Shown here: positions 2,725-19,200 of the stretch, piece by piece | How positions within the stretch are numbered: the first letter of the stretch is position 1 | How the letters are laid out: each line of letters starts with the position of its first letter | Source: Candidatus Gastranaerophilales bacterium | GTDB lineage: Bacteria > Cyanobacteriota > Vampirovibrionia > Gastranaerophilales > Gastranaerophilaceae | Length of the DNA: 64,000 nt | Reading direction: 5' to 3' | Assembly (NCBI GenBank): GCA_944323035.1 | Contig: CALUQY010000008.1 | Coordinates: forward strand, 1 to 64,000 | Translations under genes and position numbers: made by a program | Notes under the pieces: generated by a model | Database searches by the model: none | What the model was told of the DNA's origin: nothing | The model's input: only the letters and a program-made list of their open reading frames with translations

Positions 2725-2777
2725 GTACAAATACTTACACTTCGCTTTTTCATCTTTCGATCCTTTCTTTTTGTCAT

Positions 2778-2880: not shown

Positions 2881-2881
2881 T

Positions 2882-2910
2882 ATTATTTATCATTTTTCAC
2901 ATTTAGCCAA
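2882..2910 (-). promoter_or_regulatory. Prepilin-cassette promoter, copy A (degenerate)
   Basis: On the minus strand TTGGCT, 17 bases, AATAAT. It is at the same place relative to the leader ATG as the two intact copies, but both boxes are one base worse, consistent with decay of this locus. Confidence 0.5.
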
Positions 2911-2967
2911 GACCCTTGCCCTGTAAATATTTTGATGTTACAATTACATAGGATAAAGGGATAAGTA

Positions 2968-3672
2968 ATGGAAATAGGTTCTACTTTAGAAATTTTATTA
3001 CGTGTATTCAGCGCTTGTTTACTCGGTTTTGCAATCGGTTTAGAGCGTGAAATGACAAATAAATACGCCGGCCTTAGAACAAATATTCTGGTTTGTTTAG
3101 GAGCATGCTTGTTTACAATAATTTCAATCTACGGATTTCCGACCGTTGTGACGGGCGAAAATGCAAACGGCATCCGCGATACAGCCCGTGTTGCGGCACA
3201 GGTGGTAACAGGTATCGGTTTTATCGGCGGCGGTACGGTTCTGCGCCACGGGGCAACTGTGTTCGGGCTGACAACCGCAGCAACTCTCTGGATGGTCGCA
3301 AGTATAGGTATGGCTTGCGGTGCAGGACTTTACACGCTGGCGGTTATCTCAACCGTAATTTCGATAATTGTACTCGTATCTGTCAGAGTTTTTGAAAAAT
3401 CAATGCTCATCAAAAGTACGAAAAATACAAGAAGATTAACAGTTAACCTGACCTGCCCGACAGATGCAGCGGATGATATTTATGAATTTGTTATTGACAA
3501 GTATCCGAAACTTTTTGAGATAACCAAGAAAATCCAAAAGCCGGACAGCGAAAGAACCAAAATTAACGTTGTAATAGAAGTTGTAGGCAGAAACCCGATT
3601 GAATCCACTTACAAAGTATTTAATAAGCTGGAAGGCATTGAAGCGCTTTCGGTACAGGAATTTAGGGAATAG
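2968..3672 (+). CDS. MgtC/SapB-family membrane protein
   Basis: 234 residues. The N-terminal two thirds are hydrophobic with the MgtC signature: LLGFAIGLERE near residue 20, KYAGLRTNILVCLGACLFT, GIGFIGGGTVLR and TTAATLWMVASIGMACG. About four membrane helices are visible, followed from about residue 150 by a soluble ACT-like C-terminal domain (RRLTVNLTC to the end). MgtC proteins are linked to magnesium limitation and virulence regulation in other bacteria; here only family membership can be claimed. It heads a tight operon: miaB starts four bases after its stop. A GGGATAAG ribosome site precedes the ATG. Confidence 0.88.
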   Translation: MEIGSTLEILLRVFSACLLGFAIGLEREMTNKYAGLRTNILVCLGACLFTIISIYGFPTVVTGENANGIRDTARVAAQVVTGIGFIGGGTVLRHGATVFGLTTAATLWMVASIGMACGAGLYTLAVISTVISIIVLVSVRVFEKSMLIKSTKNTRRLTVNLTCPTDAADDIYEFVIDKYPKLFEITKKIQKPDSERTKINVVIEVVGRNPIESTYKVFNKLEGIEALSVQEFRE

Positions 3673-3675
3673 TAT

Positions 3676-4995
3676 ATGAAAAAAGTTTATATAGAAACAA
3701 TGGGCTGCCAGATGAATAAGTCCGACACGGAAAGAATGCTCGGTATGCTATCGCATTTCGGCTATGAAGAAACAAAAGAGTCCAAAGAAGCTGATTTGTT
3801 GATGATTAACACCTGTTCTATCCGGCAGTTGAGCGAGGATAAAGCTTACAGTGCCATAGGTGTCTGGGGCAAGTGGAAGAAAAACAAACCGGATTTAAAA
3901 ATCGGCTTCTGCGGCTGTGTTGCGCAGCAAAAGGGCGAAGATTTATTTAAACGCGCGCATTATATTGATTTTGTTCTGGGTACACATCATATTTACAAGC
4001 TGCCGGAAATCATCAAACGCGTTGAAGCAGGTGAAAAGGTATGTGAGTGCGAAGAAACACACTGCGTAGAAGATACAAAAGATTATCCGATTAAACGGGT
4101 TAAAAGCGTAAATGCGTGGATTCCGATAACAGAAGGCTGCAACAACTTTTGCACCTACTGTATTGTTCCTTACACCCGCGGACGCGAACGTTCCCGACTG
4201 CCGGAAGTAATTTTAAAAGAAGCAAAAGATGCTCTGACGCAAGGCTACAAGGAGATTACGCTTCTCGGGCAAAACGTTGACAGTTACGGCAAAGATTTTG
4301 AAGATAAGCACTACCGGCTCGCGCAATTATTAGAAGATTTAAATGCAATTGAAGGGAAATTCAGAATTCGCTTTGTAACATCATATCCGACTGATATTTC
4401 GGATGAGTTGATTGAAACCGTTACCAGATTGGATAAAGTTTGTGAATATTTTCATATTCCGATGCAATCCGGTTCGAGCGAAGTTTTGAAGAAAATGAAC
4501 CGCCGCTATGACAGAGAAACTTATGCTAAAATTGTTCAAAAAGTCCGCGATAAAGTCAAAGATGTTACGATAACAAGCGATTTCATTGCGGGATTTCCGG
4601 GCGAAACAGAAGAACAGTTTGAAGAAACCCTGACGGCAATTGATGAATTTGAGCTTGATTATTCAAACACAGCAGCTTATTCACCGCGTGAAAAAACCGT
4701 TGCAGCAAAATGGGTAGACAAATATATTGATGAAAACACAAAATTTGAACGGTTAAAACGACTCAATGACAAAGTAAAAGAAAATTGTCTTAAATCAAAC
4801 AAGAAATTTGTCGGGCGGGAAATGGAAGTTCTAATTGAAAGTTTTGAAAACCACAAAGGTAAAAATATTATTACAGGACGCACACGTAATAATAAAATAG
4901 TTCATATTCCGTGTGATACCGACCGGACAGGAGAATTTGTAAACGTAAAAATTACAGGTGCTAAAACCTGGTATGTTACAGGAGAGTTAATCTAA
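3676..4995 (+). CDS. miaB: tRNA-2-methylthio-N6-dimethylallyladenosine synthase MiaB
   Basis: 439 residues, normal length. It methylthiolates i6A37 in tRNAs that read UNN codons. The N-terminal methylthiotransferase domain supplies C11 (GCQMN), C47 (NTC) and C81 (GCVAQQ) for the auxiliary iron-sulfur cluster. The radical-SAM triad is C155-C159-C162 (GCNNFCTYC), followed by IVPYTRGRERSR. A C-terminal TRAM domain occupies about the last 65 residues. The PYTRGRERSR and LGQNVDSYG motifs favour MiaB over MtaB or RimO. Its stop overlaps the start of the terC-like gene by one base (TAATG). Confidence 0.95.
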   Translation: MKKVYIETMGCQMNKSDTERMLGMLSHFGYEETKESKEADLLMINTCSIRQLSEDKAYSAIGVWGKWKKNKPDLKIGFCGCVAQQKGEDLFKRAHYIDFVLGTHHIYKLPEIIKRVEAGEKVCECEETHCVEDTKDYPIKRVKSVNAWIPITEGCNNFCTYCIVPYTRGRERSRLPEVILKEAKDALTQGYKEITLLGQNVDSYGKDFEDKHYRLAQLLEDLNAIEGKFRIRFVTSYPTDISDELIETVTRLDKVCEYFHIPMQSGSSEVLKKMNRRYDRETYAKIVQKVRDKVKDVTITSDFIAGFPGETEEQFEETLTAIDEFELDYSNTAAYSPREKTVAAKWVDKYIDENTKFERLKRLNDKVKENCLKSNKKFVGREMEVLIESFENHKGKNIITGRTRNNKIVHIPCDTDRTGEFVNVKITGAKTWYVTGELI

Positions 4996-6047
4996 TGTTA
5001 GAATATTTTTTCGGGTCATATTTAGTAACGATTTTAGGCGTAATTGCGGCTTATTTCTGGGCGGAGCATTCACACCCCGGAACAGGCTGGACAAGCATTT
5101 TTATTGTATTTATACTTGCAATTCTTGAAGTCAGCCTGTCGTTTGACAACGCTGTTGTTAACGCGATGAAGTTAGAAAAAATGACTCATGTCTGGCGCCA
5201 CAGGTTTTTAACCTGGGGGATTGCAATTGCTGTTTTCGGGATGCGGTTTTTGTTCCCGATTTTAGTCGTTTCAATCTTTGCAAACCTGAGTATGGCAGAA
5301 GTCGCAAGAATTGCGGTTAATGACGCAGACAAATACGCACACTACCTTCATCTTACCCACGCCCCGATTGTATCCTTCGGCGGAATTTTCCTGCTGATGC
5401 TGTTTTTACATTACTTTTTTGATCACGAAAAAACAGTACACTGGCTGAAGCCTATTGAAAACTGGTTATCTCACCTTGACAATATCCGCGGAATAGAAGT
5501 CATTATTTCGCTTGCGGTACTTCTTGTAACCCAGAGTTTTGCGAAAACTCCGGATGTACAGCTTTCAATTATTATTGCCGGAATCAGCGGTATAATAACG
5601 TATCTTGCCGTAGACGGACTGGCACATTATCTGGAAAAGCGTGAGAAAAAAAGGCTTGCCCAATGCGCAGAAGGTGCTGTTTGCGGCGGATTTGTTGCGT
5701 TTATGTATCTTGAATTAATTGACGCATCTTTTTCGCTCGACGGAGTACTCGGCGCATTCGCACTGAGTAAGGACATCATCATCATTTCAATCGGCCTTGC
5801 AATCGGTGCGATGTTCGTCCGCTCGCTCACGGTAATGCTTGTTGAAAAAAAGACACTTGCGCAGTTCCTCTACCTTGAACACGGCGCGCACTGGGCAATT
5901 GGCGCCCTCGCTGTTATTATGCTAATTTCAACGGAAATTGAAGTTCCGGAAGTCGTAACCGGTATTATCGGATTGGTATTTATTGTACTTTCCTTGATTT
6001 CCTCAATACTTCACAATAAAAAGAAAAAATCACTTGAAAGTAATTAA
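4995..6047 (+). CDS. TerC/DUF475-type integral membrane protein
   Basis: 350 residues with eight or nine hydrophobic segments. LEVSLSFDNAVVNA near residue 50 and the internal echo YLELIDASFSLDGVLGAFA near residue 250 are the acidic metal-binding motifs of the TerC superfamily; the spacing fits the DUF475 branch. TerC relatives export metal ions such as manganese. The end is basic (HNKKKKSLESN). The last 18 bases overlap the stop end of a convergent gene of the phage-type cluster, so the cluster begins with no spacer. Confidence 0.85.
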   Translation: MLEYFFGSYLVTILGVIAAYFWAEHSHPGTGWTSIFIVFILAILEVSLSFDNAVVNAMKLEKMTHVWRHRFLTWGIAIAVFGMRFLFPILVVSIFANLSMAEVARIAVNDADKYAHYLHLTHAPIVSFGGIFLLMLFLHYFFDHEKTVHWLKPIENWLSHLDNIRGIEVIISLAVLLVTQSFAKTPDVQLSIIIAGISGIITYLAVDGLAHYLEKREKKRLAQCAEGAVCGGFVAFMYLELIDASFSLDGVLGAFALSKDIIIISIGLAIGAMFVRSLTVMLVEKKTLAQFLYLEHGAHWAIGALAVIMLISTEIEVPEVVTGIIGLVFIVLSLISSILHNKKKKSLESN

Positions 6048-6260
6048 GCAATCATAAATTTTGTCAATTTTATCTTTCATTTCGGCGACACCTTCTTTCA
6101 GCTCGTTATAGCTGTGCAGGGAAACGAAATGTTCTTCAACGCTCTCAATTATTTCTCTGTGTTTTTTCTCAAGCTGCTCCGGAGTGACAAAAATTCTGTG
6201 CTGGATTAAAAACATCATCAGCACAATTATTATAGGTGAATATTGTAAAATCTGTTCCAT
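6030..6260 (-). CDS. Small membrane-anchored coiled-coil protein of the phage cluster
   Basis: 76 residues, last gene of the cluster, not recognised. Residues 8-20 (SPIIIVLMMFLIQ) form one membrane helix. From about residue 28 to 72 the chain is charged and heptad-like (EQLEKKHREIIESVEEHF, ELKEGVAEMKDKIDKI). Position after the terminase and the topology suggest a lysis accessory protein (holin or spanin-like), but no motif proves it. Its 3' end overlaps the convergent terC-like gene by 18 bases. AAAGGAAC precedes the ATG. Confidence 0.7.
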   Translation of the reverse strand: MEQILQYSPIIIVLMMFLIQHRIFVTPEQLEKKHREIIESVEEHFVSLHSYNELKEGVAEMKDKIDKIYDCLITFK

Positions 6261-6278
6261 TTTAGTTCCTTTCGTTGG

Positions 6279-7568
6279 TTATAGCGTTATCGGCCAGTAA
6301 AAATCCACCAGATAAGAGGCCGCATCTATCGGGTGAGAAAGAAATTTCAATTCTCTCGATTGCTTTATCTGCTGATATGTGGGGATGTCAATTTTTGAAG
6401 ACCCTTCTTTATATTTCAAATTATAGATATTATAAAGAAGTTTTTCGCATTTTTTATCAACAAACAGGCAGACTTCGCCGTCAGCAGAGCGGATTTTAGC
6501 ATTAAATGCCATAATCCTGTTTTTAATCGGCGGGTTGAACGGTTTGATTTTAATATCAACATCATAACCGTATTGAAGAAGTTTCTTCTTGATTATTACG
6601 TAATTTGTGTACTCACTCGTACAGCTTCTGTTGTCGCCCGAAGCATCACCGTTCACAATAACTTTTCCTTTATGGTTCGGGTATCGTCTGTGAAACTCCT
6701 CGCAGGCTTTAGCAGTAGTCGTATTTTCCATAACAATTTCATCAAAATAAAAAACTTTATCCTCCGTCTTATGCGCCAGAACCCACGACATCGGATCTAC
6801 GTTGAAGTCGCAGGAAATATGCAAATCCAGCTCAGGCTGATATTTAATCTCCATGATGTTATCGTCTGTAAAATCCTTGATAACCAGCCCTTTATTGTAT
6901 TCTCCGTTTTGCGCCAGAACAAAAATATTATAATAATTTTCATCATAAAGTTTTTTAAGTTCTTCACAATAGCCCTCGGGCAGATAAATATTCTGCGTTG
7001 TAGGGGCTGAAATGAGTCTGTAATTTGGCGGCGGATCCTCAATAAAAGTTTTATAAACCCAGCCCCGCTGCATTTCAGGGTTAGTGTGTCCGAAAATTCT
7101 GTACTTAAAATTTTTCCAGCTTTTGCGGACTTTTTGCCGCATACGGCTCAAAAGCATTTTAAAAGTGTCGTAAGGAATATCAGACATTTCCTCAATTTCT
7201 ACAAACCCGAGGTTTAACGATTTCAACTTATTAGGCTCCTCAAAATGCCTGAATAAAATTTCCGATGAATTATGAAAAACCAGTTTTTGCAATGTCGATG
7301 ACCATTCATAATCCTTGCCTTCAACAAAACCCATATTATCAAGGTGTTCAAAATAAGTGTGCAGCGTGGTATCACGGACAAGGGTATAAGTCTGCGCTCC
7401 GACAAGCCCGCGAATTCCGGGGAATTTTAGCGCAAGCAAAATTCCGAGCAGCGAGCCGGCAAAGGTTTTGCCGGAGCCGTATCCGCCCTGATAAACCGCT
7501 ACATCTAAGCTGTATGAATGCGGGATTTCCAAAAACTCCCGCTGTGCTTTTAGTAAATTATATTCCAT
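6279..7568 (-). CDS. Phage terminase large subunit
   Basis: 429 residues, typical TerL length. The ATPase half has Walker A GGYGSGKT at residues 28-35 and Walker B VEIEE at 123-127. The C-terminal RNase H-like nuclease half carries D254 (SCDFNVD), a second acidic site in VNGDASGD near residue 310 and HPIDAASY near 420. TerL pumps DNA into the empty capsid and cuts it. All catalytic positions look intact, so the motor may work. GGAGGAG lies just ahead of the ATG and directly abuts a small GCCGGC...GCCGG hairpin, which could mask the ribosome site. Confidence 0.93.
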   Translation of the reverse strand: MEYNLLKAQREFLEIPHSYSLDVAVYQGGYGSGKTFAGSLLGILLALKFPGIRGLVGAQTYTLVRDTTLHTYFEHLDNMGFVEGKDYEWSSTLQKLVFHNSSEILFRHFEEPNKLKSLNLGFVEIEEMSDIPYDTFKMLLSRMRQKVRKSWKNFKYRIFGHTNPEMQRGWVYKTFIEDPPPNYRLISAPTTQNIYLPEGYCEELKKLYDENYYNIFVLAQNGEYNKGLVIKDFTDDNIMEIKYQPELDLHISCDFNVDPMSWVLAHKTEDKVFYFDEIVMENTTTAKACEEFHRRYPNHKGKVIVNGDASGDNRSCTSEYTNYVIIKKKLLQYGYDVDIKIKPFNPPIKNRIMAFNAKIRSADGEVCLFVDKKCEKLLYNIYNLKYKEGSSKIDIPTYQQIKQSRELKFLSHPIDAASYLVDFYWPITL

Positions 7569-7598
7569 AAATTTCTCCTCCGGCGCTCAAGCCGGCTC
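7569..7598 (-). promoter_or_regulatory. Hairpin abutting the terminase ribosome-binding site
   Basis: On the minus strand CCGGC-TTGAGC-GCCGG is followed immediately by AGGAG. The last stem bases touch the Shine-Dalgarno sequence of the terminase gene, so pairing may lower its translation. This is an inference from position only. Confidence 0.45.
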
Positions 7599-7618
7599 CG
7601 TAATCGGTTTAACAATAC

Positions 7619-7686
7619 AAAAAAAAAGCCGCTGCAAGATAGGGTAATTAAGACGAGAAGAGTTTAAAAAAGGAATAAGCAGCGGC
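7619..7686 (-). terminator. Long-loop terminator between portal and terminase genes
   Basis: On the minus strand GCCGCTGC, a 43-base loop, then the perfect complement GCAGCGGC followed by nine T. It sits 17 bases after the portal stop. It would partly insulate the terminase gene from the structural genes upstream, or form a structured RNA element. Confidence 0.7.
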
Positions 7687-7703
7687 ACTAAGAATAAGCA
7701 GAT

Positions 7704-9356
7704 TTAGTCAGTTGTACCTTTATCAAGTAAGAAGTTATTCACATTTTCAATTCCGTACTGTTCAAGCGCGAACTTAAAGCACTCAAGCCAGTCGATATTC
7801 TGCGCGATTACATCCACCTGTGCAAAAGCCTGAACGACCTCAAAGAGTTCTTTAAACCGGCTTTTACGTTCGAAAATTGCTTTTCTGTCGCCATAGCGAT
7901 AAATATAATTTGCGTTGCGGATAGAATCATCAATTTCCATAAATGAAGTTTGACCGTGTTCGTTAACAGCAATAGTTTCCTTGCCAAGTTTGAAATTTGC
8001 AATAATATCAGCCGTTTTTTCGACTGCCGGAATAATAATTTTTCTGTTAATTTCTTCCAGCAGCATATTCAAACGCGACTCCTGCCCGCTGGCAGAGTAG
8101 TTGAGTTCTGTTGCCGTGCGCGCCTGTTCCTGAATATTTCCGGACATATTTTTGAAAATACCGGTTGCACTTTCAATGGTTGTTTTAAAATAATTCAGAA
8201 AATCCCAGCCGACCATAGCTTTATCAAAATTCAGCGGCGTCGGGGTTGTAGGCATTAAAGCCGCATCATACTCAATAATTTTACCGGGACTGATATTTTG
8301 TTGACCTCTAAAACATCCCTTCGGCGCAAGATATGGCGGGTTCATGGTAAGTGCCAGCGCATCAAGCTGTTTATTCAGGATTTCAGACGAAATATCATTG
8401 AGCACAAGCGCAACTCTGATAGGCGAAATTCCGCGTCCGGTTGCAGGATTTTCAATAATATTTGCGTGAATAAACGGGTTTATTACGAACGGGTTGCTTT
8501 CAAAGCGTATAATATGCTTTCTGCCGGCAACGGTTATAAACCAGTTTTTCAAAAGTTTTCCGTTTCTAAGTTCTATATCCCCGAGGAATTCAAAAACCTC
8601 AATCTTGTTATTATCAAAAGAGGTCGGTCTTTTGCTGTTTTTTGCCACCACTCCCTTCAAATCTTCCAGCTTTAACTCGTTAAGATAATTGTTTGCCTTG
8701 TCCGAACGGATTTCATCAAGGGTCTTAAAGGTTCTGTAAATCTTCGAGCAACTGTCCCAGTTATCCGCATCGTACTTATCAAAAACAAAATCTTCCGGAT
8801 GAATATACTTAATTTTTGCGTTATCATAGACGACTTTTTCTTCAATAACAAAGCCTTTATTAGTAAAATCCAGCATTTTTTCTTCAAAAGTCTGGGCACG
8901 GCGCGTACGTTTAACCCGTGTTTCCCAGCCGACAAAAAGCGTTGCCTCACCCGCTTCAACAATACCGTTGACTATTTTTTCAAGTTCGGATTCAAAATCC
9001 ATCTCTTCAAAGGTTTTAACAAGCATAGCTTTTTGTTTATTTGCAAACGCTTGCGACTCTTGATCGGTTCCTGAAACATCAAACATAGTTTCAGGGTGAG
9101 AATAAACATTCTGCGTAATATGAGCCTTGAGTGTCTGCGCAAGTTCATACATATTCGGCAGCTCAACTTTAGAATCCCATGCCCCTCTGACAGGTGATTT
9201 TATCTCATAAATTGCATTTCTCACCGCCGCGAGATCTGATATTTGCGAACTTCTTGTACTTTCATAGTTATCAAATTTTCTTGTAATTCTGTCTACAAGA
9301 TGACTTTCTTCCAATTCATCAATCTGAATTGTTAAATCTTCCATTTCTAATTGCAT
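7704..9356 (-). CDS. Portal (head-tail connector) protein
   Basis: 550 residues, within the range for podovirus-type portals. The sequence has the features of the P22/T7-like portal class: an acidic N terminus, VRNAIYEI...VKSPVRGAWDS-type opening, FVDKYDADNW-like segment FVFDKYDADNWDSCSK, long central ENPATGRGISPIRVALVLNDISSEILNKQLDALAL helix region (seen near residues 305-345) and an Ala/Gln-rich wing before residue 430. It forms the dodecameric DNA gate that docks the terminase. AAGGAGGGG precedes the ATG; the start overlaps the end of the acetyltransferase gene by ten bases. Assignment rests on size, context and general pattern. Confidence 0.8.
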   Translation of the reverse strand: MQLEMEDLTIQIDELEESHLVDRITRKFDNYESTRSSQISDLAAVRNAIYEIKSPVRGAWDSKVELPNMYELAQTLKAHITQNVYSHPETMFDVSGTDQESQAFANKQKAMLVKTFEEMDFESELEKIVNGIVEAGEATLFVGWETRVKRTRRAQTFEEKMLDFTNKGFVIEEKVVYDNAKIKYIHPEDFVFDKYDADNWDSCSKIYRTFKTLDEIRSDKANNYLNELKLEDLKGVVAKNSKRPTSFDNNKIEVFEFLGDIELRNGKLLKNWFITVAGRKHIIRFESNPFVINPFIHANIIENPATGRGISPIRVALVLNDISSEILNKQLDALALTMNPPYLAPKGCFRGQQNISPGKIIEYDAALMPTTPTPLNFDKAMVGWDFLNYFKTTIESATGIFKNMSGNIQEQARTATELNYSASGQESRLNMLLEEINRKIIIPAVEKTADIIANFKLGKETIAVNEHGQTSFMEIDDSIRNANYIYRYGDRKAIFERKSRFKELFEVVQAFAQVDVIAQNIDWLECFKFALEQYGIENVNNFLLDKGTTD

Positions 9357-9871
9357 AGCCCCTCCTTAAGGTTGTGTTCACGGAACACAGAATAAATTTC
9401 GATATCCTGTAATCGGTTATTTTTTCTTGTTTCGGCTTTTAAAAGTGCTTCGCGTCTGAATCCGCATACTCTCAAGATTGCTTTAACTCTTGAATTTTGC
9501 GGATATACAAGCGCCTTAATCTTAGTCAGCCCGAGTACGTCAAAGCAAAAATCCTGAAAATTTCTTGCTGCGTATTTAGTGAAAACGCCCCAGTATTTCC
9601 GGTTAAAGCAGGTGATAACCTCTGCGGAATGAATTTTGTTTTCAGAACCTATGAGGTGTTCCAGACAAAAGAAGCCACAAACCTCATCATCTGCCAGCAC
9701 AAGATAAAAATGCGGCGTTATTCTCTCAATAGTTTCAACCATTCCTTCAAGCGAACGCTCAGAGAACAGCGAAAAATCGTCCTCCAAATTACGCAAGTAT
9801 TTTATGTAGAGTTTCATAACCTGCGGAAAGTATTTAATATTATGAAACAGTCCGGCCTTACGGTTAATCAT
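9347..9871 (-). CDS. GNAT-family acetyltransferase of the phage cluster
   Basis: About 174 residues from the ATG at 9871; an ATG at 9904 is an alternative and the longer frame to 10015 lies inside the preceding gene. The C-terminal half shows the GNAT pattern: LVLADDEVCGFFCLEHL (beta strands), YWGVFTKYAARNFQDFCF (acetyl-CoA-binding helix) and LGLTKIKALVYPQNSRVKAILRVCGF. Acetyltransferases of this kind accompany portal genes in several podovirus-like and GTA-like clusters, where they may modify virion proteins or the host surface. Substrate unknown. Confidence 0.75.
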   Translation of the reverse strand: MINRKAGLFHNIKYFPQVMKLYIKYLRNLEDDFSLFSERSLEGMVETIERITPHFYLVLADDEVCGFFCLEHLIGSENKIHSAEVITCFNRKYWGVFTKYAARNFQDFCFDVLGLTKIKALVYPQNSRVKAILRVCGFRREALLKAETRKNNRLQDIEIYSVFREHNLKEGLCN

Positions 9872-9884
9872 AATTCTTTCAAAT

Positions 9885-10250
9885 CTAAACTGTTGTCTTT
9901 GCATACATAAATTCCACATAAGAATCGCCCGCGATAAAGGCGTTGATTTTACCTGCAAGCAAAGCAGCTCTGACAGTTTCCTGCATTCCGAGCATAGCCT
10001 CTGCCTGAACACCATTCACAAGGCTTTCAGTCCCGTTAATTTTGTTAAAAACCTTAAAAACACTTGATTTAGAAAAAAGAAGATTTTTCGGAACTTCCGA
10101 AATATTTTCAAATTTTCTGACTTTAGGAATATTTTTTGCTTTTTCCTGAAGGGTTTTATAGTCTTGCTGAATTTTCATCTGAATAAGTTCATCAATAGAC
10201 TTGCCCGTCAAAAGCATTTTTTCAACATCTGAATTATTAATATCTTTCAT
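9885..10250 (-). CDS. Uncharacterised protein of the phage cluster
   Basis: 121 residues, not recognised. An acidic-basic helical N terminus (VEKMLLTGKSIDELIQMKIQQDYKTLQEK) is followed by a shorter folded part ending INAFIAGDSYVEFMY. There is no signal peptide or membrane helix. It lies between the small terminase and the acetyltransferase, and AAAGGTAAAAT precedes its ATG. By position it could be a packaging or connector accessory factor. Confidence 0.7.
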   Translation of the reverse strand: MKDINNSDVEKMLLTGKSIDELIQMKIQQDYKTLQEKAKNIPKVRKFENISEVPKNLLFSKSSVFKVFNKINGTESLVNGVQAEAMLGMQETVRAALLAGKINAFIAGDSYVEFMYAKTTV

Positions 10251-10266
10251 ATTTTACCTTTCTTTT

Positions 10267-10701
10267 TTAGAGTTTATTTTCATCCAGATTGGATATTGTT
10301 ATAATTTTTGCGTCCTTGTAAGAGTCCTCCTGAGAGAGTCCGAACCCGAGATGTTTGCAGAGATTTTCAAGGGCTTTTAAGCCTGTCGAGGTATCTCTTA
10401 GCTTACGTTTACCAGTAAGCGAGCCGTCTTTATCCAAAATATCCTCTTCTTCGAGCGAAAACTCTATGATTTGTAAAAGCTTTTGAACAATATAGCCTTT
10501 TTCAACGCGCAGAGAGGGTATTCTGGAGAGAAGTTCCCCTTGCATAGCTTTAATAATTTTCTTATCGGAGAGCATTTTGTTAGCGAGTTCTTTAAGATTA
10601 TTATTTTTGTAGCCTGCATAGCGGCAGGCAGCCTCACCGTCAAGAGTTTTGATATATTCTTCAATAAACTTTTTCTGTTGAATTGTAACGTTTTTCATCA
10701 T
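10267..10701 (-). CDS. Phage terminase small subunit
   Basis: About 144 residues from the double ATG near 10701. The longer frame to 10761 would run over an opposing promoter and has no ribosome site. The N-terminal QQKKFIEEYIKTLDGEAACRYAGYKN matches the Terminase_2 DNA-binding helix-turn-helix; LSDKKIIKAM follows, then a helical oligomerisation region and a short acidic tail. It recognises DNA for packaging and activates the large subunit. In GTAs this subunit is often changed to allow non-specific packaging; the sequence alone does not settle that here. Confidence 0.85.
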   Translation of the reverse strand: MMKNVTIQQKKFIEEYIKTLDGEAACRYAGYKNNNLKELANKMLSDKKIIKAMQGELLSRIPSLRVEKGYIVQKLLQIIEFSLEEEDILDKDGSLTGKRKLRDTSTGLKALENLCKHLGFGLSQEDSYKDAKIITISNLDENKL

Positions 10702-10726
10702 TTTTATTTCAATTTCTTTACATAAT

Positions 10727-10755
10727 TTGATATTTTTCCGAATAAGTAGTATAAT
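10727..10755 (+). promoter_or_regulatory. Consensus sigma-70 promoter opposing the phage cluster
   Basis: TTGATA (10727-10732), 17 bases, TATAAT (10750-10755). It points to the right, against every gene of the cluster. Transcription would start near 10762 and meet the terminator at 10792-10823. Confidence 0.8.
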
Positions 10756-10760
10756 GAACA

Positions 10761-10823
10761 TGCTATTTATATTTCGGCTAGTGTAAATCTTAACAGGGGG
10801 AATACAAACTTCCTGTTTTTTTT
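10761..10823 (+). ncRNA. Predicted ~60-nt antisense small RNA
   Basis: Bounded by the consensus promoter at 10727-10755 and by a stem AACAGGGGG/CTTCCTGTT (10792-10800 with 10809-10817) plus a T run. It contains only an eight-codon frame without a ribosome site (ATG at 10760). The transcript is complementary to the leader of the small terminase message if that is read from upstream. It could control expression of the packaging half of the cluster. Not matched to any known RNA family by eye. Confidence 0.6.
10792..10823 (+). terminator. Intrinsic terminator of the antisense RNA
   Basis: Stem of up to nine pairs with two G-U pairs, 8-base loop, then eight T in a row including the stem end. The T run is only on the plus strand, so it serves the opposing transcript. 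Confidence 0.8.
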
Positions 10824-10983
10824 ATGCGCCGAGCGAAGCCACGAAGATTGCGGAGCAATCGTAGAGTCGAGCGTGCGACGGCCAAAACCGCGTTCTTGGC
10901 TGCAAACGCGAGCAGTGGCGTTCATCGCGAGGCGCAAAGGCTTTGCCCGATGTGTAGCGCCGGTGCAGAGGCAGACATCCTGC
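10824..10983. repeat. GC-rich insertion between connector and small terminase genes
   Basis: About 160 bases much richer in GC than the neighbouring genes, with small inverted repeats such as GATTGCGGAGCAATC and GGCTTTGCCC. It resembles the R1/R2 elements in composition but I cannot align it to them. It holds no credible gene; an open frame on the plus strand across it has no ribosome site. Confidence 0.5.
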
Positions 10984-11628
10984 TTACGATCTACGTAACC
11001 TCACAACCGGTTCAAACCCTGAATCAATAGAACAGCGCGAAACCATGTTTGCCAGCGCATCTTTATACATACTTACCCAGTAGTTAAAACGTATGTGCTG
11101 CGGATTTCCTTTCAGCCGCATACAGGTGCCGAAAACCAGAATCGGTTCAACAAACGGCATCGGTATCGCAGAAGAATCTGTTTCCTCAGTAAGCGACGAT
11201 TTTTCCTCACCTGCGGCATTAAGCGCACTGTTGTATGTATAATAGATTACCTCCACGCTCTTATCTTCATCAAAAGTTTTGGCGAAGATAATTTTGCCGT
11301 CATAGCCTGAATAAAGATTTTTACCTTTGACTTTACGGTTAATAATATCAGAAGCGTTTTCATAGTAGTGAAACTCATGTGAATCAATAAGCAGCTGCGA
11401 AATTCTGCCGTTTATTGTATTATCAATTTCATTCATGCCGGCAGGCAGAGTGAGTACGGTTTTTCGCAAAAGAAAATTCCATTTTGCATACTGGCAGACT
11501 TCCGAATTTAGAACGTTAAGAATGTTCATTATTTTCTTGTGCTCATTTTTGGTAAGTTCCGCGAAATTATTAACCTGTTTGTAATTAAGTTCAACCAGAC
11601 ATTTATTTATAATTTCTAAAAAGTTCAT
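10984..11628 (-). CDS. Probable head-completion / tail-connector protein
   Basis: 214 residues from the ATG at 11628, which has AAAGGAG at good spacing; the longer frame lacks one. The N-terminal half is helical (EIINKCLVELNYKQV, NILNVLNSEVCQYAKWNFLLRK). Then come strands containing LTLPAGMNEIDN, YSGYDGKIIFAK and VEVIYYTYNSALN, and a C-terminal helix pair. This arrangement is like the P22 gp4 / gp10-type adaptor that sits under the portal. Recognition is by pattern and context, so the exact role is uncertain. The end lies next to the GC-rich insertion, which may have altered the final residues (RLRRS). Confidence 0.65.
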   Translation of the reverse strand: MNFLEIINKCLVELNYKQVNNFAELTKNEHKKIMNILNVLNSEVCQYAKWNFLLRKTVLTLPAGMNEIDNTINGRISQLLIDSHEFHYYENASDIINRKVKGKNLYSGYDGKIIFAKTFDEDKSVEVIYYTYNSALNAAGEEKSSLTEETDSSAIPMPFVEPILVFGTCMRLKGNPQHIRFNYWVSMYKDALANMVSRCSIDSGFEPVVRLRRS

Positions 11629-11695
11629 AATTACTCCTTTAACATCTGTGAAGCCAGAGGGGAAAAATCCCCTCAAAACCTCACAAAAGAATTTA

Positions 11696-12361
11696 CTATT
11701 TAATCAGGCCCTTGCGGAGCTGGTCCATAATGGCAGCTTCATATTTAGTAAATTCATCACCACTCATTTTGCCGATTTGAGCACGGGTAAAAACCCTGTT
11801 GTTATCGGAAGGATTAGAGCTTTGCGCATTGGCGGTAAGTCTAAGCTTCGCGATATTGTTTTCGTCATTTAATGTTTTTCCGTACTCTTCTTTTTTCAAA
11901 TATCTTTCCACAGCACTCTGTTCAAGAGCTTCAATGAGTTTAGATATTTGCAAGAGTTCATCTTTGTCAAAATTCACGGGTGAATTTTTCAGATAATTCA
12001 GGACATCCGAGCGCCCTGCCTGATTAAAGAAATCAGGGTTAAGCGCGGCGAATTGTGCGAATGCATCCGTTGAAGGAGTAGTATTGCCGGACAAAGCAGA
12101 CTCATGTTGTTGTGTAGTAACATCTGTGTATGCATTTTTAATAACCTGTTTCATTAAATTTTGTCCTTGTTCACGGTCTACAAGTCCCATAGCCATTAGT
12201 GCACGAATGGCCGCGAGGTCATTTGCGACTAATTTTTCAACCCGTTCCTGCGCAGAAGCAATATTTTGCCCGTTGTTATCTGTTGGAGTAACACGCGGAT
12301 TTTGAGTCACGGCATTCAATGAATCCCTTGATAAATTTTTATTTTTTTCCTGTTCGTTCAT
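11696..12361 (-). CDS. Probable capsid scaffolding protein
   Basis: 221 residues, hydrophilic and rich in Asn, Gln and Ala, without cysteines or membrane helices. The N-terminal third looks disordered. The C terminus FTRAQIGKMSGDEFTKYEAAIMDQLRKG follows the 'tRxqIgkMs..EF.k....I...l..G.I' pattern common at the end of phage scaffold proteins. It lies two genes from the coat gene. It would direct coat assembly and leave before DNA packaging. Start supported by GAGGT ahead of the ATG, only three bases after the preceding stop. Confidence 0.7.
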   Translation of the reverse strand: MNEQEKNKNLSRDSLNAVTQNPRVTPTDNNGQNIASAQERVEKLVANDLAAIRALMAMGLVDREQGQNLMKQVIKNAYTDVTTQQHESALSGNTTPSTDAFAQFAALNPDFFNQAGRSDVLNYLKNSPVNFDKDELLQISKLIEALEQSAVERYLKKEEYGKTLNDENNIAKLRLTANAQSSNPSDNNRVFTRAQIGKMSGDEFTKYEAAIMDQLRKGLIK

Positions 12362-12364
12362 TTG

Positions 12365-12622
12365 TTATACCTCAATTACATCTTGAATATCGTCGCGGTG
12401 ATTCATATATGCAACCGCGATTTCGACAGCACTGTCAATAAATACAGAGAGCACAAACCCGAGAATAAATTTCAGATAAGACGGCACCGGCAGATTTGCG
12501 ACAACATATTTTATTGCTGCAATCTTTTTATTTTTGCCTTCTTCTCCGTTTAGTTCTTCCTCAACCTGCATAACAGCACTTTTTGCGAGTTCAAGAATCT
12601 TATTTTTTAAACTGTCAAACAT
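12365..12622 (-). CDS. Small holin-like protein
   Basis: 85 residues from the ATG at 12622 (CAGGTG upstream); a GTG at 12631 is an alternative. The first 30 residues are charged and helical, GEEGKNKKIAAIKYVVANLP follows, then a hydrophobic helix YLKFILGFVLSVFIDSAVEIAVAYMNH. The GKxKK...VE..V..LN pattern recalls the LLH-type holin-like family, but a place between coat and scaffold genes is unusual for a holin. A virion-associated role is equally possible. It overlaps the coat stop by a few bases depending on the start. Confidence 0.6.
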   Translation of the reverse strand: MFDSLKNKILELAKSAVMQVEEELNGEEGKNKKIAAIKYVVANLPVPSYLKFILGFVLSVFIDSAVEIAVAYMNHRDDIQDVIEV

Positions 12623-12623
12623 A

Positions 12624-13508
12624 CTACGCACCTGCCGTTACAACCATTTTAGCCAGCGCTTTCGGCTGAACAGTCTTAGCACCGTAGAGATAAAGACCTC
12701 TGACAAGATCAGAGAAGGAATCTTTATCACGTAAAGTTTCAATTTTAGCGAGCTGTGATGCGAACGTAATCGCTTCGTTAGTACCGGCAAGGATGTAGTA
12801 TTTATCATCAGTATCAGTAAGGTTTGTACTTACAAGAACATCCATGCCTGCAATTCTTCCGATTGCACCTTCTCTAAGTGTTTGGTCAGCAACATTGTGC
12901 GCACCGATAAATTCAGAACTTTGAAGCAGGTAAGATTCAACCAGCGGATTAATAACAACCCACGGACGCTGACCGCCGCTTACGGCATCAGAATTTTTCA
13001 ATTTCATTGCAAGTTCAACAAAATATTTGTAAATAGTAGTTTTATCCAGTGACACAGGAGAAGCATCGCTGCCGACAGTGTTATCTGTAGTAACGTTTGT
13101 ATGCTGTGACAAAAGATAAGCATCCTGAACCTGTTCAATAGCTCTTCTTGCGTTTTCAAGATGTGCTTCCATAATGCTTGTGTTAGCCTGAACAGCCGCA
13201 ATATCATTGATTTTAAAGGCAAAGAATTTTTGCTGGTCAATAACCAATTCCTGAGAGGTCGGTTCAAGTTCATCATAAGTTATAGCGGAAGTTCCAAGAG
13301 TAGAAATTGCAACCTGTGCAGGAGTGATAATTTTTACCTTATCGCCCTGAGCAGCGATTTCGCCCTCATAGTTTCTGTTAACACATTGGAGCATAACGCA
13401 TTTTTTCTCTAACATTGTTGACAGTTTTTTACTCCATATTTCAGGAATAAAAGCAGCGTAAGAGTTTGCTGCCGGAGCAGCAGAAGTTGTTGGTGTGTTT
13501 TCTGACAT
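12624..13508 (-). CDS. Major capsid (coat) protein
   Basis: 294 residues from the ATG at 13508 with AAAGGGAAAG upstream. A flexible Ala/Pro/Ser N terminus is followed by FIPEIWSKKLSTMLEK, an opening typical of P22-type and related HK97-fold coats. DKVKIITPAQVAISTL, LVIDQQKFFAFKINDI and HLENARRAIEQVQDAYLLS mark the E-loop, P-domain and spine helix. GRIAGMDVLVSTNL and the end VQPKALAKMVV complete the A-domain. It should form the icosahedral shell. No truncation is visible. Confidence 0.88.
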   Translation of the reverse strand: MSENTPTTSAAPAANSYAAFIPEIWSKKLSTMLEKKCVMLQCVNRNYEGEIAAQGDKVKIITPAQVAISTLGTSAITYDELEPTSQELVIDQQKFFAFKINDIAAVQANTSIMEAHLENARRAIEQVQDAYLLSQHTNVTTDNTVGSDASPVSLDKTTIYKYFVELAMKLKNSDAVSGGQRPWVVINPLVESYLLQSSEFIGAHNVADQTLREGAIGRIAGMDVLVSTNLTDTDDKYYILAGTNEAITFASQLAKIETLRDKDSFSDLVRGLYLYGAKTVQPKALAKMVVTAGA

Positions 13509-13568
13509 TTTCACTTTCCCTTTCGTTTAACTAGTGTAGTAATATAAATAATGAGTGGTGGTGTTTAA

Positions 13569-15095
13569 TTAATATGCGTCGTCAAAAATTTCTCTGAATT
13601 GTAAGCCTATAATTCCACAGTTGTGATAGGCTTCACTCCCTTCGATACATATTTGAACCGCATAATTGCTTTCGGAAATTTCCGCCTTTTCCAGCGTTTC
13701 CGAATTAACAGACCAGATAGGAATACGGGCTTCATCTTCCCCCCATTTACACGGCAGACTCTCTGGTGTTGTTTCATCTGCCCATAATAAATGGTCATAG
13801 TTTATATTATGTATAACTTCTTTATCATCCGGATATCCGGTATCAAAATTTTTATACACAGAAAAGTTAAAATTATTATCATATTCGCAGTCAAGTACAA
13901 AATAAAATTCATCAATAACTTTTCTGTGATGAGCGTCTTTCAGCACCAGAAAAGGAGATTTCCACATAAAATCAACAGGCTGTCCGCAAAAATCACGTCC
14001 GAAATCTTCTATATAAATCTTTCCGGCATCATCATAAGTAAGGACATTTCCCTTGAACATACACGCACCCAGAACATTCTGCGGAACAACACGCTTGTAC
14101 CAGAGTTTCAGTACGTAATCATTAATCCAGATTGTTTTAAAGTATGCCTCATCAGTATAAGGCATAAAATACCACATTTGATTACGCTTTTCATAATGCA
14201 GACAAATGCTTTCAGATAACCTTGAGGTATCCAGCAAATCAAATTCCGGCTTAATTTTCAACGAAATCTCGGAACCGACATGGATTTGCATCAAAACTCC
14301 GGCCTCCTCAAGCGAAAATATTCCGCTGTCGGAGAGGAAAAATTGCCTGTTATCAACATTAACAAGAGAACGATGTGCCTTTGTACCTTTATCCGCAAAA
14401 AGCTGGATTGAAAAATCCTCCGGAGAACTTCCGCTCAAAAGGTAAACCTGATTTTTCTTATAAATCGCCAGATAATCCTTGTACTCTCCAATACCAGTAA
14501 TAACATCCGTATTGGTGTGGAAATCATTTATATAACCGGCGTCTTTTTCTTCCGTAAAATTATCATAAGTACCGAGCGCTGAATAATAAATTGTCGAATC
14601 TTTAGCGACCCAAACCCGTCCGCGATATGTTGTAATAAGTCCGCCGGTCAAATCGTTTCCGGATAAATTTTTCAAATTACAATCAACGACAGTGTAATCT
14701 TCGTCATTTTTAACATAACGCATCTTATCAGCTTCAGTCATAATCAAAAACCCGTTTAAAAAGTTTCTGAATACCGGTTTAACTCCGCTAAGAGTCAAAT
14801 CAAGCGTTTTTAGCTCCTCTTCAGCCTCATCATAGATATAAACTTTTCCGCTGACTGTTGTTATTACAAGTTTATAAGAATCCTGATGTGTAAACTGATG
14901 CAGTCCGGTTATTTCTTCCTTATCAGTAAGTTCCAGATAAACAGCATTGCCCTGCTGTCTTTTAATTCCATTGGTATTAAGGAGTTCAATATTTTTTGAA
15001 TCAGCCCAGTACATACGCTTTGTATCAAGCCCCATTTCTGTCTTTGATAAACTCTGGTTAATACCTCCGGATAAGTTGTAAAAAGCAATCTCCAT
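13569..15095 (-). CDS. Beta-propeller-like virion structural protein
   Basis: 508 residues with many regularly spaced short strands ending in aromatic residues (KLVITTVSGKVYIYDE, GRVWVAKDSTIYYSALG, YLAIYKKNQVYLLSGSS), suggesting a beta-propeller. The opening FYNLSGGINQSLSKTEMGL...WADSKNIEL is typical of podovirus tail-stabilising or tail-hub proteins (P22 gp10-like position). It is encoded just upstream of the coat gene. No tail-fibre or spike domain is present, so if particles form, receptor binding must come from elsewhere. GGGGGAT precedes the ATG. Confidence 0.7.
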   Translation of the reverse strand: MEIAFYNLSGGINQSLSKTEMGLDTKRMYWADSKNIELLNTNGIKRQQGNAVYLELTDKEEITGLHQFTHQDSYKLVITTVSGKVYIYDEAEEELKTLDLTLSGVKPVFRNFLNGFLIMTEADKMRYVKNDEDYTVVDCNLKNLSGNDLTGGLITTYRGRVWVAKDSTIYYSALGTYDNFTEEKDAGYINDFHTNTDVITGIGEYKDYLAIYKKNQVYLLSGSSPEDFSIQLFADKGTKAHRSLVNVDNRQFFLSDSGIFSLEEAGVLMQIHVGSEISLKIKPEFDLLDTSRLSESICLHYEKRNQMWYFMPYTDEAYFKTIWINDYVLKLWYKRVVPQNVLGACMFKGNVLTYDDAGKIYIEDFGRDFCGQPVDFMWKSPFLVLKDAHHRKVIDEFYFVLDCEYDNNFNFSVYKNFDTGYPDDKEVIHNINYDHLLWADETTPESLPCKWGEDEARIPIWSVNSETLEKAEISESNYAVQICIEGSEAYHNCGIIGLQFREIFDDAY

Positions 15096-15127
15096 TTTTT
15101 CAATCCCCCAAGATAAAGTTAATATAA

Positions 15128-15187
15128 TAAAGCAGTTTCCCGCCGCGGGTTGAGCTGCAGGAGCAGGTCAATACGCGGCGACACCGG
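15128..15187. repeat. R2 repeat element, partial copy a
   Basis: AATAAAGCAGTTTCCCGCCGCGGG...GAGCAGG matches the tail end of the R2 family (AAAGCAG..CTCCGCC...GAGCAGG) but lacks the co-varying hairpin arm. It fills the gap between the amidase and propeller genes. Confidence 0.55.
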
Positions 15188-15676
15188 CTATAAATTTTCC
15201 AGATACCACCGTACTTTTGAACGTATAAAACTTCCGGCTTCATCCCTTTTAACCCACGGATACGGCGGGATAAAAACAATATCTATTTTGCCGAAACTTG
15301 TCGTCTTTGGATGTGCCTGCCCGAATTCATAGTGAGTCATAAGAGTGTCAGTCCCTAAAGGAATGCCGTACTTCTTTAAAAGTTCTGCACACAATTTCAT
15401 TGTTCTTTCAAATTGAACAGGCGTAATCGGATAATCTCCGGCATTATGTTCATTTTTAAATCCCAGCATTGCACACATTGACACCCCTATTGAACCCGTG
15501 TTGCCGCCGCCGGTGTGCATAGCATAGCTATTACCTCTACACACCTCATTGTCCTCAACTTTAAATTTTCCTTCATAAATTTCGCCATCAGCCCCGACTA
15601 AATAATGATAATGTTCCAGATCACAATGGTTTGGCTGATATTTTCCGGCTGTCCAGTGTAAAATTATTCGTTTCAT
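15188..15676 (-). CDS. N-acetylmuramoyl-L-alanine amidase (phage-type endolysin)
   Basis: 162 residues, one Amidase_2 (T7 lysozyme/PGRP-like) domain. It cleaves between muramic acid and the stem peptide. Probable zinc ligands are H7 (ILHWTAG), H115 (MTHYEFG) and an acidic residue in GKIDI near 132; MHTGGGNTGSIGVS is the usual core strand. There is no signal peptide or cell-wall-binding domain, so it would need a holin. Its ATG overlaps the stop of the HTH gene by four bases (ATGA), showing translational coupling. It is transcribed second, unlike most phage lysis genes, which come late. Confidence 0.9.
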   Translation of the reverse strand: MKRIILHWTAGKYQPNHCDLEHYHYLVGADGEIYEGKFKVEDNEVCRGNSYAMHTGGGNTGSIGVSMCAMLGFKNEHNAGDYPITPVQFERTMKLCAELLKKYGIPLGTDTLMTHYEFGQAHPKTTSFGKIDIVFIPPYPWVKRDEAGSFIRSKVRWYLENL

Positions 15677-15906
15677 AAAACCTCTTTACTATCGCGCAAT
15701 ATTTGCATAAACTCCTCGGGAGCAATTTCTATTAAGCATTTAAACGCAGCATTTATCTTGTTTCTGGCAGCTAACTTTAACGTTGCTCTATCAATATAAG
15801 TCCTCACGGTGTAATAACTAAGATTCATCTTGTCAGCTACCTCTCTGTCGCTATATCCCAAGGCAATATAGACGAGAACCATTATTTCCTGCGATGATAA
15901 CTTCAT
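15673..15906 (-). CDS. LuxR/GerE-type HTH regulator heading the phage cluster
   Basis: 77 residues consisting almost only of a LuxR-like helix-turn-helix: LSSQEIMVLVYIALGYSDREVADKMNLSYYTVRTYIDRATLKL, then a short helical tail. No receiver or ligand domain is present. AAAGAGGTAG precedes the ATG. Being first in the operon, it is the only candidate regulator of the cluster and may act on the repeat-rich region upstream (15907-16180). Host-type rather than CI-type control would fit a domesticated element. Confidence 0.85.
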   Translation of the reverse strand: MKLSSQEIMVLVYIALGYSDREVADKMNLSYYTVRTYIDRATLKLAARNKINAAFKCLIEIAPEEFMQILRDSKEVL

Positions 15907-15981
15907 TTTCTACCTCTTTTTCATACATACTACCAGCTTAACAAAAAATATTTTAAAAACATTAATAATATTTCCTGTTTT

Positions 15982-16011
15982 AAAAAAATGAGGATTTCAT
16001 AGAAATCCTCA
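15982..16011 (-). terminator. Terminator upstream of the phage cluster
   Basis: On the minus strand a perfect ten-pair stem TGAGGATTTC/GAAATCCTCA with a 3-base loop is followed by seven T. It lies 76 bases upstream of the HTH gene and in the same direction. It therefore ends a short transcript from the 16.0-16.2 kb region, or acts as an attenuator that must be overcome to express the cluster. Confidence 0.8.
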
Positions 16012-16031
16012 CGTTAAGATAATCGGATTTT

Positions 16032-16178
16032 ATATGAAAAATTTGTCTCCCAAGTTCTACTGTCAATTTGCATTCGATATTTGTAGTATATACGATATGA
16101 AAAATTTGAAAAGTCGCCAATTTTGTTGACCCAAATTTATGTCAACATATTTATGTAGCCAAATTTGGGGACTTGACA
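16032..16178. promoter_or_regulatory. Repeat-rich control region of the phage cluster
   Basis: The 324-base gap 15907-16230 holds no gene. It contains the direct repeat ATATGAAAAATTTG twice (near 16032 and 16095), the dyad GTTGAC-N10-GTCAAC (near 16126-16147) and several CCAAATTT units. These look like operator sites. A minus-strand TATACT near 16088 with a weak -35 could start a transcript ending at the terminator at 15982-16011. Confidence 0.5.
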
Positions 16179-16181
16179 AAC

Positions 16182-16207
16182 AAAAAAGCCCGTAAATACG
16201 GGCTTTT
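16182..16207 (-). terminator. Terminator of dnaE
   Basis: Eleven-pair stem AAAAGCCCGTA/TACGGGCTTTT with a two-base loop, located 24 bases after the dnaE stop. T runs flank it on both strands. Confidence 0.88.
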
Positions 16208-16230
16208 AAAAAATTATATTAAGTGTAAAT

Positions 16231-19200
16231 TTATGCCAATTTTGTGTCCATAGACTTCACATTGACATCAATTCTGCCGGAGAATTTTGCCTTAAGCGTA
16301 TTCACAAGGTCATTTGAGGAGTTAACCCAGCAGCTTGAATTGGATAAAATTTTGACTGTTCCGGTCGAATCTTTAAGCGTTACCGTCACAGGATCAGATC
16401 CGGCATGTTCGGTTAAGAAACTTTTTAAATACATCAATTCCTCAAATTTAAAATCATCAAGAAGAATAATATTAAAGATGTTGGAATTTTCAATAGTTTT
16501 AACGCTGTCAACAACAAGAGAAGGTGCCTCATCCTCTTCGCGGCGGTTAACTTTTCCGGATACAATAACACGCTGTTCCGGTTCCAGCAGGCTGTCAAAC
16601 TCCATTAGTTTTCTATGGAAACAAATCACATCAATCTTGCCTGAAAGATCTTCAACCGTCACAAATTTAAGGAACTTTGTAGGATCTTTTTTAGTCGGAA
16701 TTTTCTTGACTGCCGTAATCAACCCGCAGATTGTAACCGGTTTATCGTTTGGAAGTTCAGCAAGTTCCGTAATTTTATGTGTCATCAAAAACGGCAATTT
16801 ATCCCTGATTGTCTGAAGCGGGTGGCTCGTGACATAAAATCCTAAAAATTCTTTTTCAAAATTTTGTATCTGGCGCGCGTCAAACTCCTCATCGCTTCCT
16901 GCAAGCTGAAATTTCATATCATCAACAACGGAGGAATCGCCAAGCATATCAAATAAGCTGCCCTGACCGGATTCTTTTGCCTTTGCCTCTTTAGAAGCCG
17001 TATTTGTAATATAGTCAATATTTTCCCATAGCTGCTTACGACTCTTTTCAATAGTCGAAAACGCACCGGATTTAATCAAACCTTCAAGAGTTTTCTTGTT
17101 GGAACATTTTGAGTCAAGACGTTTGATATAATCATAGATAGATTTAAAAGGCCCGTTAGCATCCCGCTCTGCAATAATACATTCAATAACGGCTTCACCC
17201 ACCTGCTTAATTGAAGCAAGCCCGAAACGAATATTACCGTTATCCGGCGTGAAGGATGCCATTGAGTGGTTAATATCCGGCGGAAGAACTTTTATACCTT
17301 TCTTCTGCGCCTCTTCTATGTAAAGCTGTGTTTTTTCCTGATCGCTTGAAACACTTGATAAAAGCGCAGAAAGATATTCAACAGGGTAGTGGCATTTCAG
17401 ATAAGCCGTCTGATAAGCAACAAACGCATACGCAGCAGAGTGCGACCGGTTAAAGCAGTAAGAAGCAAACGCAAGAATTTGGTTGAATAAAGCAGTCGCA
17501 TCCGCCGCACTCATCCCGTGTGCTGCAGAACGCTCAATGAACTTGGTTTTTTGTTTTTCCATTTCATCGACTTTTTTCTTACCCATCATACGACGAACCA
17601 TGTCCGCTTGCCCGAGAGTATAATCAGCAAGCACCTGAAACACCTGCATGATTTGTTCCTGATAAACAATAGTTCCGTAAGTATCTTTAAGAACTGGCTC
17701 AAGAAGCGGGTGGGCATAAGAGATTTCCTGACGGCCGTGTTTTCTTTCAACGAAGTCGTCAACCATGCCGGAATCAAGCGGCCCCGGTCTGAAAAGTGCC
17801 ACCAGCGCGCCCAAATCTTCAAAAACGTCCGGTTTAAGACGTTTGACAAGGTTTTTCATGCCTTGAGATTCCAGCTGAAAAACGCCGTCCGTATCGCCCG
17901 TCATAAGCATGTCATAAACAGGTTTGTCATCCAGTGGAATATCATTAATTGCAAGTTCAATTCCCTGCTGCTGCTTGATTAAATCGACTGTTTTATAAAT
18001 AGTCGTAAGGTTGCGCAGCCCCAGAAAGTCCATTTTCAAAAGGCTTAAAACTTCTGTAACGTCATGCGGCGGATAGCCGGTCTGTACAATTCCGTCTTTT
18101 GACGGCTGAATAGGCAGGATTTCATCCAGCGGAACCCTCGAAATAATAACGCCCGCCGCATGGGTACCGGTATTATTTTTGATTCCTTCAATCCCGATTG
18201 CAAGGTCAACAATCTTTTTAACCCCGACGGTTTTCCCGTCCCCCGGATCGCCGCATGGCAGCTGCTCATCGTTCTTGTACATCGTTTTTAATTCCGAGCC
18301 GTCGACCTGCATAGCATCTTTCAGGGTTTTTGCTTTAGGATTTGTTGCCTGTGCAAGTTCAATTGCAGGCTCGATAAGAGAAGCCAGCTTGTTACTTTCC
18401 GAAAACGGAACTTTTAATATACGGCAAATACCTTTCAACGCAGCTTTTGCCGCATAAGTACCAAACGTAATAATCTGACAGACTTTATCTTCACCGTATT
18501 TTTGCGTAACGTAATCAATAACTTCCCCGCGGCGCTCAATACAGAAGTCAATATCAATATCGGGCATGGTGAAACGTTCAGGATTCAAAAAACGTTCAAA
18601 CAATAATTTGTGCTTAATCGGGTCAAGATCGGTGATTTCAAGAGCATACGCAACAAGCGAACCCGCTGCCGAGCCTCTGCCCGGGCCGACCGGAATTCCG
18701 TGCGATTTTGCATAATAAATAAAATCCCACGTAATCAAAAAGTATGCAGCAAAACCCATCTGGTTAATAACACTTAATTCATAATCCGCACGTTCTTTAA
18801 GCTCTGGCGTAACTTCGCCGTAGCGTTTTTTAATCCCCTCAAAGACAAGGTGTTCCAAATAAGATTCAATAGTATAGCCTTCCGGAACCTGATAGTGAGG
18901 AAGCGGACTTTTCCCGAGTTCCAGCGTCAAATGACATTTTTCGGCAATATCAACCGTATTTTTAATGCATTCGTTAAACGTATCCTCGTCCATCCACTTG
19001 AAAAATGTTCTCAATTGTTCCGGTGTTTTAACGTAAAATTCGTTATTCGGAAAATGGAAACGGTTAGGATCGTCTTTATCACTGTTTGTCTGCATACAAA
19101 GAAGGGTGTCATGCATATCCGCATCATCACGCGTTAGATAGTGCGAGTCATTTGTAATAACCATTTTAATCCCGAGTTCTTTAGCGATTTGGACGAGTTC

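Follow-up and report, generated by a model that had tools for sequence, protein, structure and literature searches.

At positions 10762-10823 of the window (the whole stretch of 64,000 nt of Candidatus Gastranaerophilales DNA that was analysed), on the plus strand, there lies what is well supported as a real small RNA (sRNA) gene, predicted to produce an RNA of approximately 62 nt. The gene is conserved as a complete transcription unit, it is independent of the phage-like capsid cluster that surrounds it here, and its 5′ end is complementary to prepilin coding sequences far beyond chance. It is, in our view probably, a stand-alone gene of the host lineage (Gastranaerophilales), the product of which acts in trans as an antisense RNA on prepilin mRNAs, with an effect that is probably repression rather than activation; that prepilin messages are the target, and that the RNA is expressed and actually pairs with them, as well as any role of a chaperone, we infer from sequence.

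The promoter consists of a -35 box TTGATA (10727-10732) and a -10 box TATAAT (10750-10755) separated by 17 nt, which together match the consensus at 11 of 12 positions, and the 5′ end of the RNA is predicted at an invariant G located 7 nt past the -10 box, the position expected for a transcription start. The invariant 5′ region GCUAUUUAUAUUUCGGCUAGUGUAAA (10762-10787), which is the predicted target-pairing region or seed, is followed by an intrinsic terminator (10792-10823) that begins 37 bases past the -10 box and is formed by a GC-containing stem of 9 bp (10792-10800/10809-10817), a loop of 8 nt and a tail of eight T (10816-10823), the T run being taken as the 3′ end. These elements had been placed correctly to the base in an earlier reading made from the DNA letters alone (the sequence-only reading), which described them on the plus strand at 10727-10823, between minus-strand genes, and expected an RNA of approximately 60 nt, in agreement with the length now predicted. 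Its statement that this is the best promoter of the cluster is also borne out by a scan of window positions 1-20000, in which the site ranks first among sigma-70-like sites on either strand. The same scan returned 67 promoter-like sites, with 49 expected in shuffles, which is only a modest excess, and simple promoter scanning alone is weak evidence for the site. The site is taken as real because more than 100 divergent loci share the combination of promoter, 5′ end and terminator; the gene behaves as an independent transcription unit with its own promoter and terminator and with neighbouring genes whose orientation varies from locus to locus.

The unit sits in a gap of 282 bp (10702-10983) between two minus-strand genes, namely that of the terminase small subunit (TerS, 10267-10701; PHROG 51, E=5e-16, and Pfam Terminase_2), which flanks the unit and lies outside it, and a cluster gene with a weak match to a tail protein (10984-11676; phrog_6013, E=1e-8). 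The listed start of the terS open reading frame, at 10761, was rejected because the upstream extension contains a stop codon (TAG) in four sister genomes (G001, G002, G004 and G006), from which the start is judged to be at 10701 or 10698, so that the whole sRNA unit is intergenic. Directly downstream of the terminator, a dispersed GC-rich repeat (10829-10937) shows approximately 68-84% identity to about nine other places in the genome to which the window belongs (G000); being a dispersed host repeat, which several sister genomes lack downstream of the RNA, it was rejected as a part of the unit. Runs of at least 12 G/C are found near the repeat (L002-L006, e.g. L003:1485-1500), and in some copies they immediately follow a conserved coding start of short length; open reading frames reading MQGGGGPAEP... 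lead into prepilins, and phase variation is possible.

The conservation of both boxes and of the stem in relatives, which the sequence-only reading had proposed as a check, has now been examined, and promoter boxes, spacing and terminator form are all kept where the flanking genes are. Relatives of terS were found by protein query in 49 of 146 related genomes, and beside all 30 of the terS loci that were read (55-100% TerS identity) TGCTATTTATATTTCGGCTAGTGTAAA is unchanged, with a TATAAT-like box before it and a hairpin and T run after it. A pattern search allowing up to 3 mismatches detected the sRNA in 66 of the 146 genomes, generally with one copy each, and the gene is as a rule single-copy. 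At E<=1e-3, a model of promoter and seed (R1) matched 75 of the 88 genomes of family f1 and no genome from beyond it. The core TTCGGCTAGTNTNNA was carried by 312 of the 383 family genomes that were sampled, the reversed control giving only a handful of matches. Matches that carry a taxon name belong to Candidatus Gastranaerophilales/Melainabacteria, besides two ascribed to other genera that look like misassignments. No relevant match was returned by Rfam covariance models, including those of Yfr1 and 6S, at the gathering score or at E<=10, nor did the search for similar DNA in phage records match the sRNA site.

The distribution of the changes within the unit is informative on what is being kept. 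Among 90 different upstream sequences the promoter spacer drifts while the -10 box and its distance hold, TATAAT being exact in 73 and the interval between box and RNA start unchanged in 82, with TTG or TTTG (or CTTTAC) 17-18 nt before it in relatives. The terminator retains the form of a hairpin and T run with stems that differ by genus (AACAGG/CCTGTT, CGAGGG/CCCTCG, GCAAGT/ACTTGC, ACGGGA/TCCCGT), and it is the 26-nt 5′ end that is best conserved, being invariant or falling into few variants across the family and more strictly kept than the diverging terminators. The 62-nt RNA is identical in G000 and G004, for which dS at the neighbouring genes is approximately 0.5-2.3 and mostly above 1; with dS near saturation, drift would have erased the RNA if it were not under selection. 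Two further features of the locus were observed. A TTTCTTA-like box (often TTACATTTCTTA), a possible regulator site, is found upstream of the -35 box, e.g. at 10712-10719 of the window, in 31 of 103 divergent loci, with 11 expected from shuffles; and one subgroup (L032, L038, L070, L080, L090 and L097) has a long conserved insertion in the terminator loop (..GTTTGGACACGTTTTGATATTTCCTTTCATCTGAC..), so that the RNA predicted there is well over 100 nt.

Three classes of seed are found: class 1 GCUAUUUAUAUUUCGGCUAGUGUAAA, which is that of this window, class 2 GUUAUUAAUGUUUCGGCUAGUGUAAA and class 3 GUUGUUAAUGCUUCGGCUAGUAUGC. Class 1 can fold as a weak hairpin with the loop UCGGCU (10774-10779); classes 2 and 3 largely break it with no compensating changes, and the 5′ hairpin was therefore rejected as the conserved element, primary sequence being what is kept.

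Complementarity of the RNA to mRNAs encoded elsewhere exceeds chance. Read as its reverse complement, the 30-nt 5′ end gives R-F-T-L-A-E-I, i.e. codons of the start of the class III prepilin N-terminal motif. Among 2,000,000 shuffles, FTLAE turns up in only 5 and the looser F[TS][LM][ASV]E in 30, which puts the chance of an antisense FTLAE at approximately 2.5e-6. Several near-matches of the seed elsewhere are the antisense strand of prepilin starts (L116, L124-L128), and an R1 match in G077 (G077:C2:324665-324703, minus strand) falls within a prepilin gene (G077:C2:324647-324724, plus strand). Prepilins, counted as PF07963 matches, number 99 in G000, 116 in G015, 83 in G017 and 72 in G077; for a genome of 1.9 Mb such as G000, about 99 prepilin-type genes are an unusually large pilin-like repertoire.

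When 320-380 gene starts per genome (368 in G077) were ranked by duplex energy, prepilins took ranks 1, 2, 3, 5, 7 and 8 in G077, 1, 8 and 20 in G048, and 5 and 7 in G000, with AUC values for prepilin windows against other gene starts of 0.99, 0.99 and 0.88, respectively. Shuffled seeds did as well as the real one in none of 240 cases in G077, none of 240 in G048 and 4 of 240 in G000, and the reversed seed also fails. The three seed variants gave z values of about -2 to -7 against prepilins in nine of ten genomes; the sample of gene starts from G067 held a single prepilin. Although prepilins were picked as the target class only after the near-matches had been seen, the shuffle margins are large nonetheless. 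In well-annotated prepilin genes the predicted pairing covers roughly codons 4-12.

In the proposed mechanism, the sRNA would be transcribed from its own sigma-70-type promoter and stop at its own intrinsic terminator, and its invariant 26-nt 5′ end would pair with the start of prepilin coding sequences, at the codons of the motif for cleavage and methylation by prepilin peptidase, G|F-T-L-A-E-V/I-L-I (approximately codons 4-12). A duplex near the coding start can interfere with ribosome loading; here, either this step or the first phase of elongation would be impeded and prepilin messages laid open to RNases, and many prepilin paralogues would be lowered together.

A different account of the same data, which we regard as possible but would not favour, accepts a real host-wide sRNA and takes the prepilin complementarity to be secondary or inherited (e.g. 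from an antisense prepilin fragment), with the invariance of the seed serving another target or a bound protein. Indeed, G000 prepilins are mostly of the FTMAE type and pair imperfectly, with 13-18 Watson-Crick pairs out of 24 and the lowest AUC of the three genomes ranked above, so that the seed is more invariant than such pairing seems to need; the surplus may point to additional targets or to a protein that binds the RNA. In single genomes, genes of other kinds likewise reach good scores, and the best-scoring prepilins of G026 (FSLIE type) lack complementarity to the seed. Covariation on the target side was sought and not found, seed variants showing no preference for the prepilins of their own genome. 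Moreover, G037, although without a detected sRNA copy, gave an AUC of 0.96, which no shuffle out of 120 equalled, and since its prepilins are as complementary as others, prepilins are not visibly shaped by the RNA. Unchanged targets are what one would expect if the codons are held in place by the protein motif, yet the evidence is thereby left one-sided. Against this account stand the prepilin enrichment, which beats shuffles in G000, G048, G077, G037 and most of the ten-genome set, and the very low chance, given above, of an antisense FTLAE.

The sequence-only reading had described an antisense sRNA inside the capsid cluster, complementary to the leader of the small terminase message, that keeps the packaging half silent or separates it from the structural half. 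A plus-strand sRNA gene within the cluster is strongly supported, and the role proposed for it is not supported; the invariant 5′ end is complementary to prepilin messages and to nothing in the cluster specifically. The cluster itself (6030-15906, minus strand), which encodes TerL, a portal, a GNAT protein, TerS, a major head protein, an amidase and a LuxR-type HTH protein, lies between host genes (MiaB/TerC-like and DnaE). It spans approximately 9.9 kb, with host genes on both sides and no recognizable integrase, replication or tail-tube genes, and its dN/dS in comparison with G004 is 0.015-0.24. Many other genera have it at one shared locus, with SecA-like and c1 genes on one side and radical-SAM, ZIP and rotary-ATPase-like genes on the other. 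The cluster looks domesticated and vertically inherited, and is perhaps similar to a gene transfer agent.

Wherever the cluster is present in its close form, the RNA is antisense and placed between terS and the next gene, so that any read-through mRNA of the cluster would be complementary to it, which speaks for a cis-antisense RNA acting on the terS leader or insulating the two halves. However, 16 of the sRNA-bearing genomes, in which the RNA is equally conserved, have no TerL match, and RNA, promoter and terminator are kept at unrelated chromosomal sites in genomes with no detectable large terminase. Eight genomes (G029, G033, G034, G039, G045, G063, G067 and G074) carry a diverged TerL on a contig other than that of the sRNA. 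A diverged cluster is located elsewhere in G045, G029, G034 and G039, and in the first three of these the unit is conserved far from the cluster. In other genera the gene occupies unrelated intergenic sites, flanked by genes in any orientation. In G007, G046 and G075 the RNA comes after c1, the same gene that borders the cluster in other genomes, and G046 retains a remnant of a cluster gene; in G051, G014 and G082 the RNA stands beside cluster genes in altered arrangements or cluster remnants. Most simply, the RNA persists where the cluster decays or changes its place. Its conservation is thus not restricted to loci with an overlapping target gene but extends to genomes without TerL and to sites away from the cluster, and silencing of the terminase message is therefore not what the RNA is there for. 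Furthermore, pairing in cis would work with any sequence, yet here it is mainly the 26-nt 5′ end that is held invariant. Terminase silencing as the main role is largely refuted, and the cis-antisense explanation as a whole is improbable.

Selection on a leaderless mini-ORF encoding MLFIFRLV is very improbable: in the main variant the frame ATG CTA TTT ATA TTT CGG CTA GTG TAA is uninterrupted, and variants 1 and 2 differ in part at synonymous or third positions, but the start and stop codons that a leaderless small protein would conserve are not kept, the start triplet varying among relatives (ATG, TTG, CTG, GTG or AAG) and the stop being lost in the third variant. In addition, variants 1 and 2 show no change at the third positions of CGG CTA GTG. 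Sites for DNA packaging (pac/cos) are often at or near terS, which is the position of the unit here, but promoter and terminator are conserved, and the unit is present in genomes without the cluster and away from terS, so that a packaging site in place of an RNA gene was rejected and is hardly credible. A leader or attenuator of a downstream gene was rejected on the basis of the conservation pattern and the variable neighbours.

The prepilin-targeting sRNA can be compared with known systems. RybB has many OMP mRNAs as targets, and the sRNA described here would likewise be compact, have a promoter and a terminator to itself, act in trans and reach many related surface-protein mRNAs through a conserved 5′ region. 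Targeting of coding sequence, predicted here, is known for RybB, MicC and SdsR of enterobacteria, which bind that of ompD (PMC4911921). There is no sequence kinship with RybB, the taxon is unrelated, and the predicted site is one protein motif in up to approximately 100 paralogues. Yfr1 is a conserved small RNA of cyanobacteria (PMC6778093, PMC6974561). Like the present gene, it is found within the wider cyanobacterial lineage as a single gene whose very short product contains a highly conserved motif, and it affects envelope genes. Its conserved motif, ACUCCUCACAC, is unlike the present seed, and the sRNA matches no Rfam family. PilR of Synechocystis is antisense to the prepilin gene pilA11, and lowers a prepilin and pilus formation (PMC5924778). 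PilR is encoded opposite its single target, whereas the gene of the present sRNA lies apart from its predicted targets, and many prepilins would be reached in trans. Full-text searches of the literature on regulatory RNAs in Melainabacteria, the uncultured gut relatives of cyanobacteria, found nothing.

A bolder form of the prepilin model, which is unlikely to hold in full, is that the RNA reads a protein motif, with its sequence frozen to match the processing-motif codons of up to approximately 100 paralogues, so that one RNA would govern the whole repertoire; its housing, in many genera, in a domesticated capsid cluster could then link the state of pili or DNA uptake to particle production. 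If the model of prepilin targeting is true, a single ultraconserved RNA has control of a prepilin family of exceptional size through codons that the protein cannot easily change, which would account both for the extreme conservation of the seed and for the joint regulation of dozens of paralogues. The gene also shows that a conserved RNA located within a phage-like cluster need not serve phage genes.
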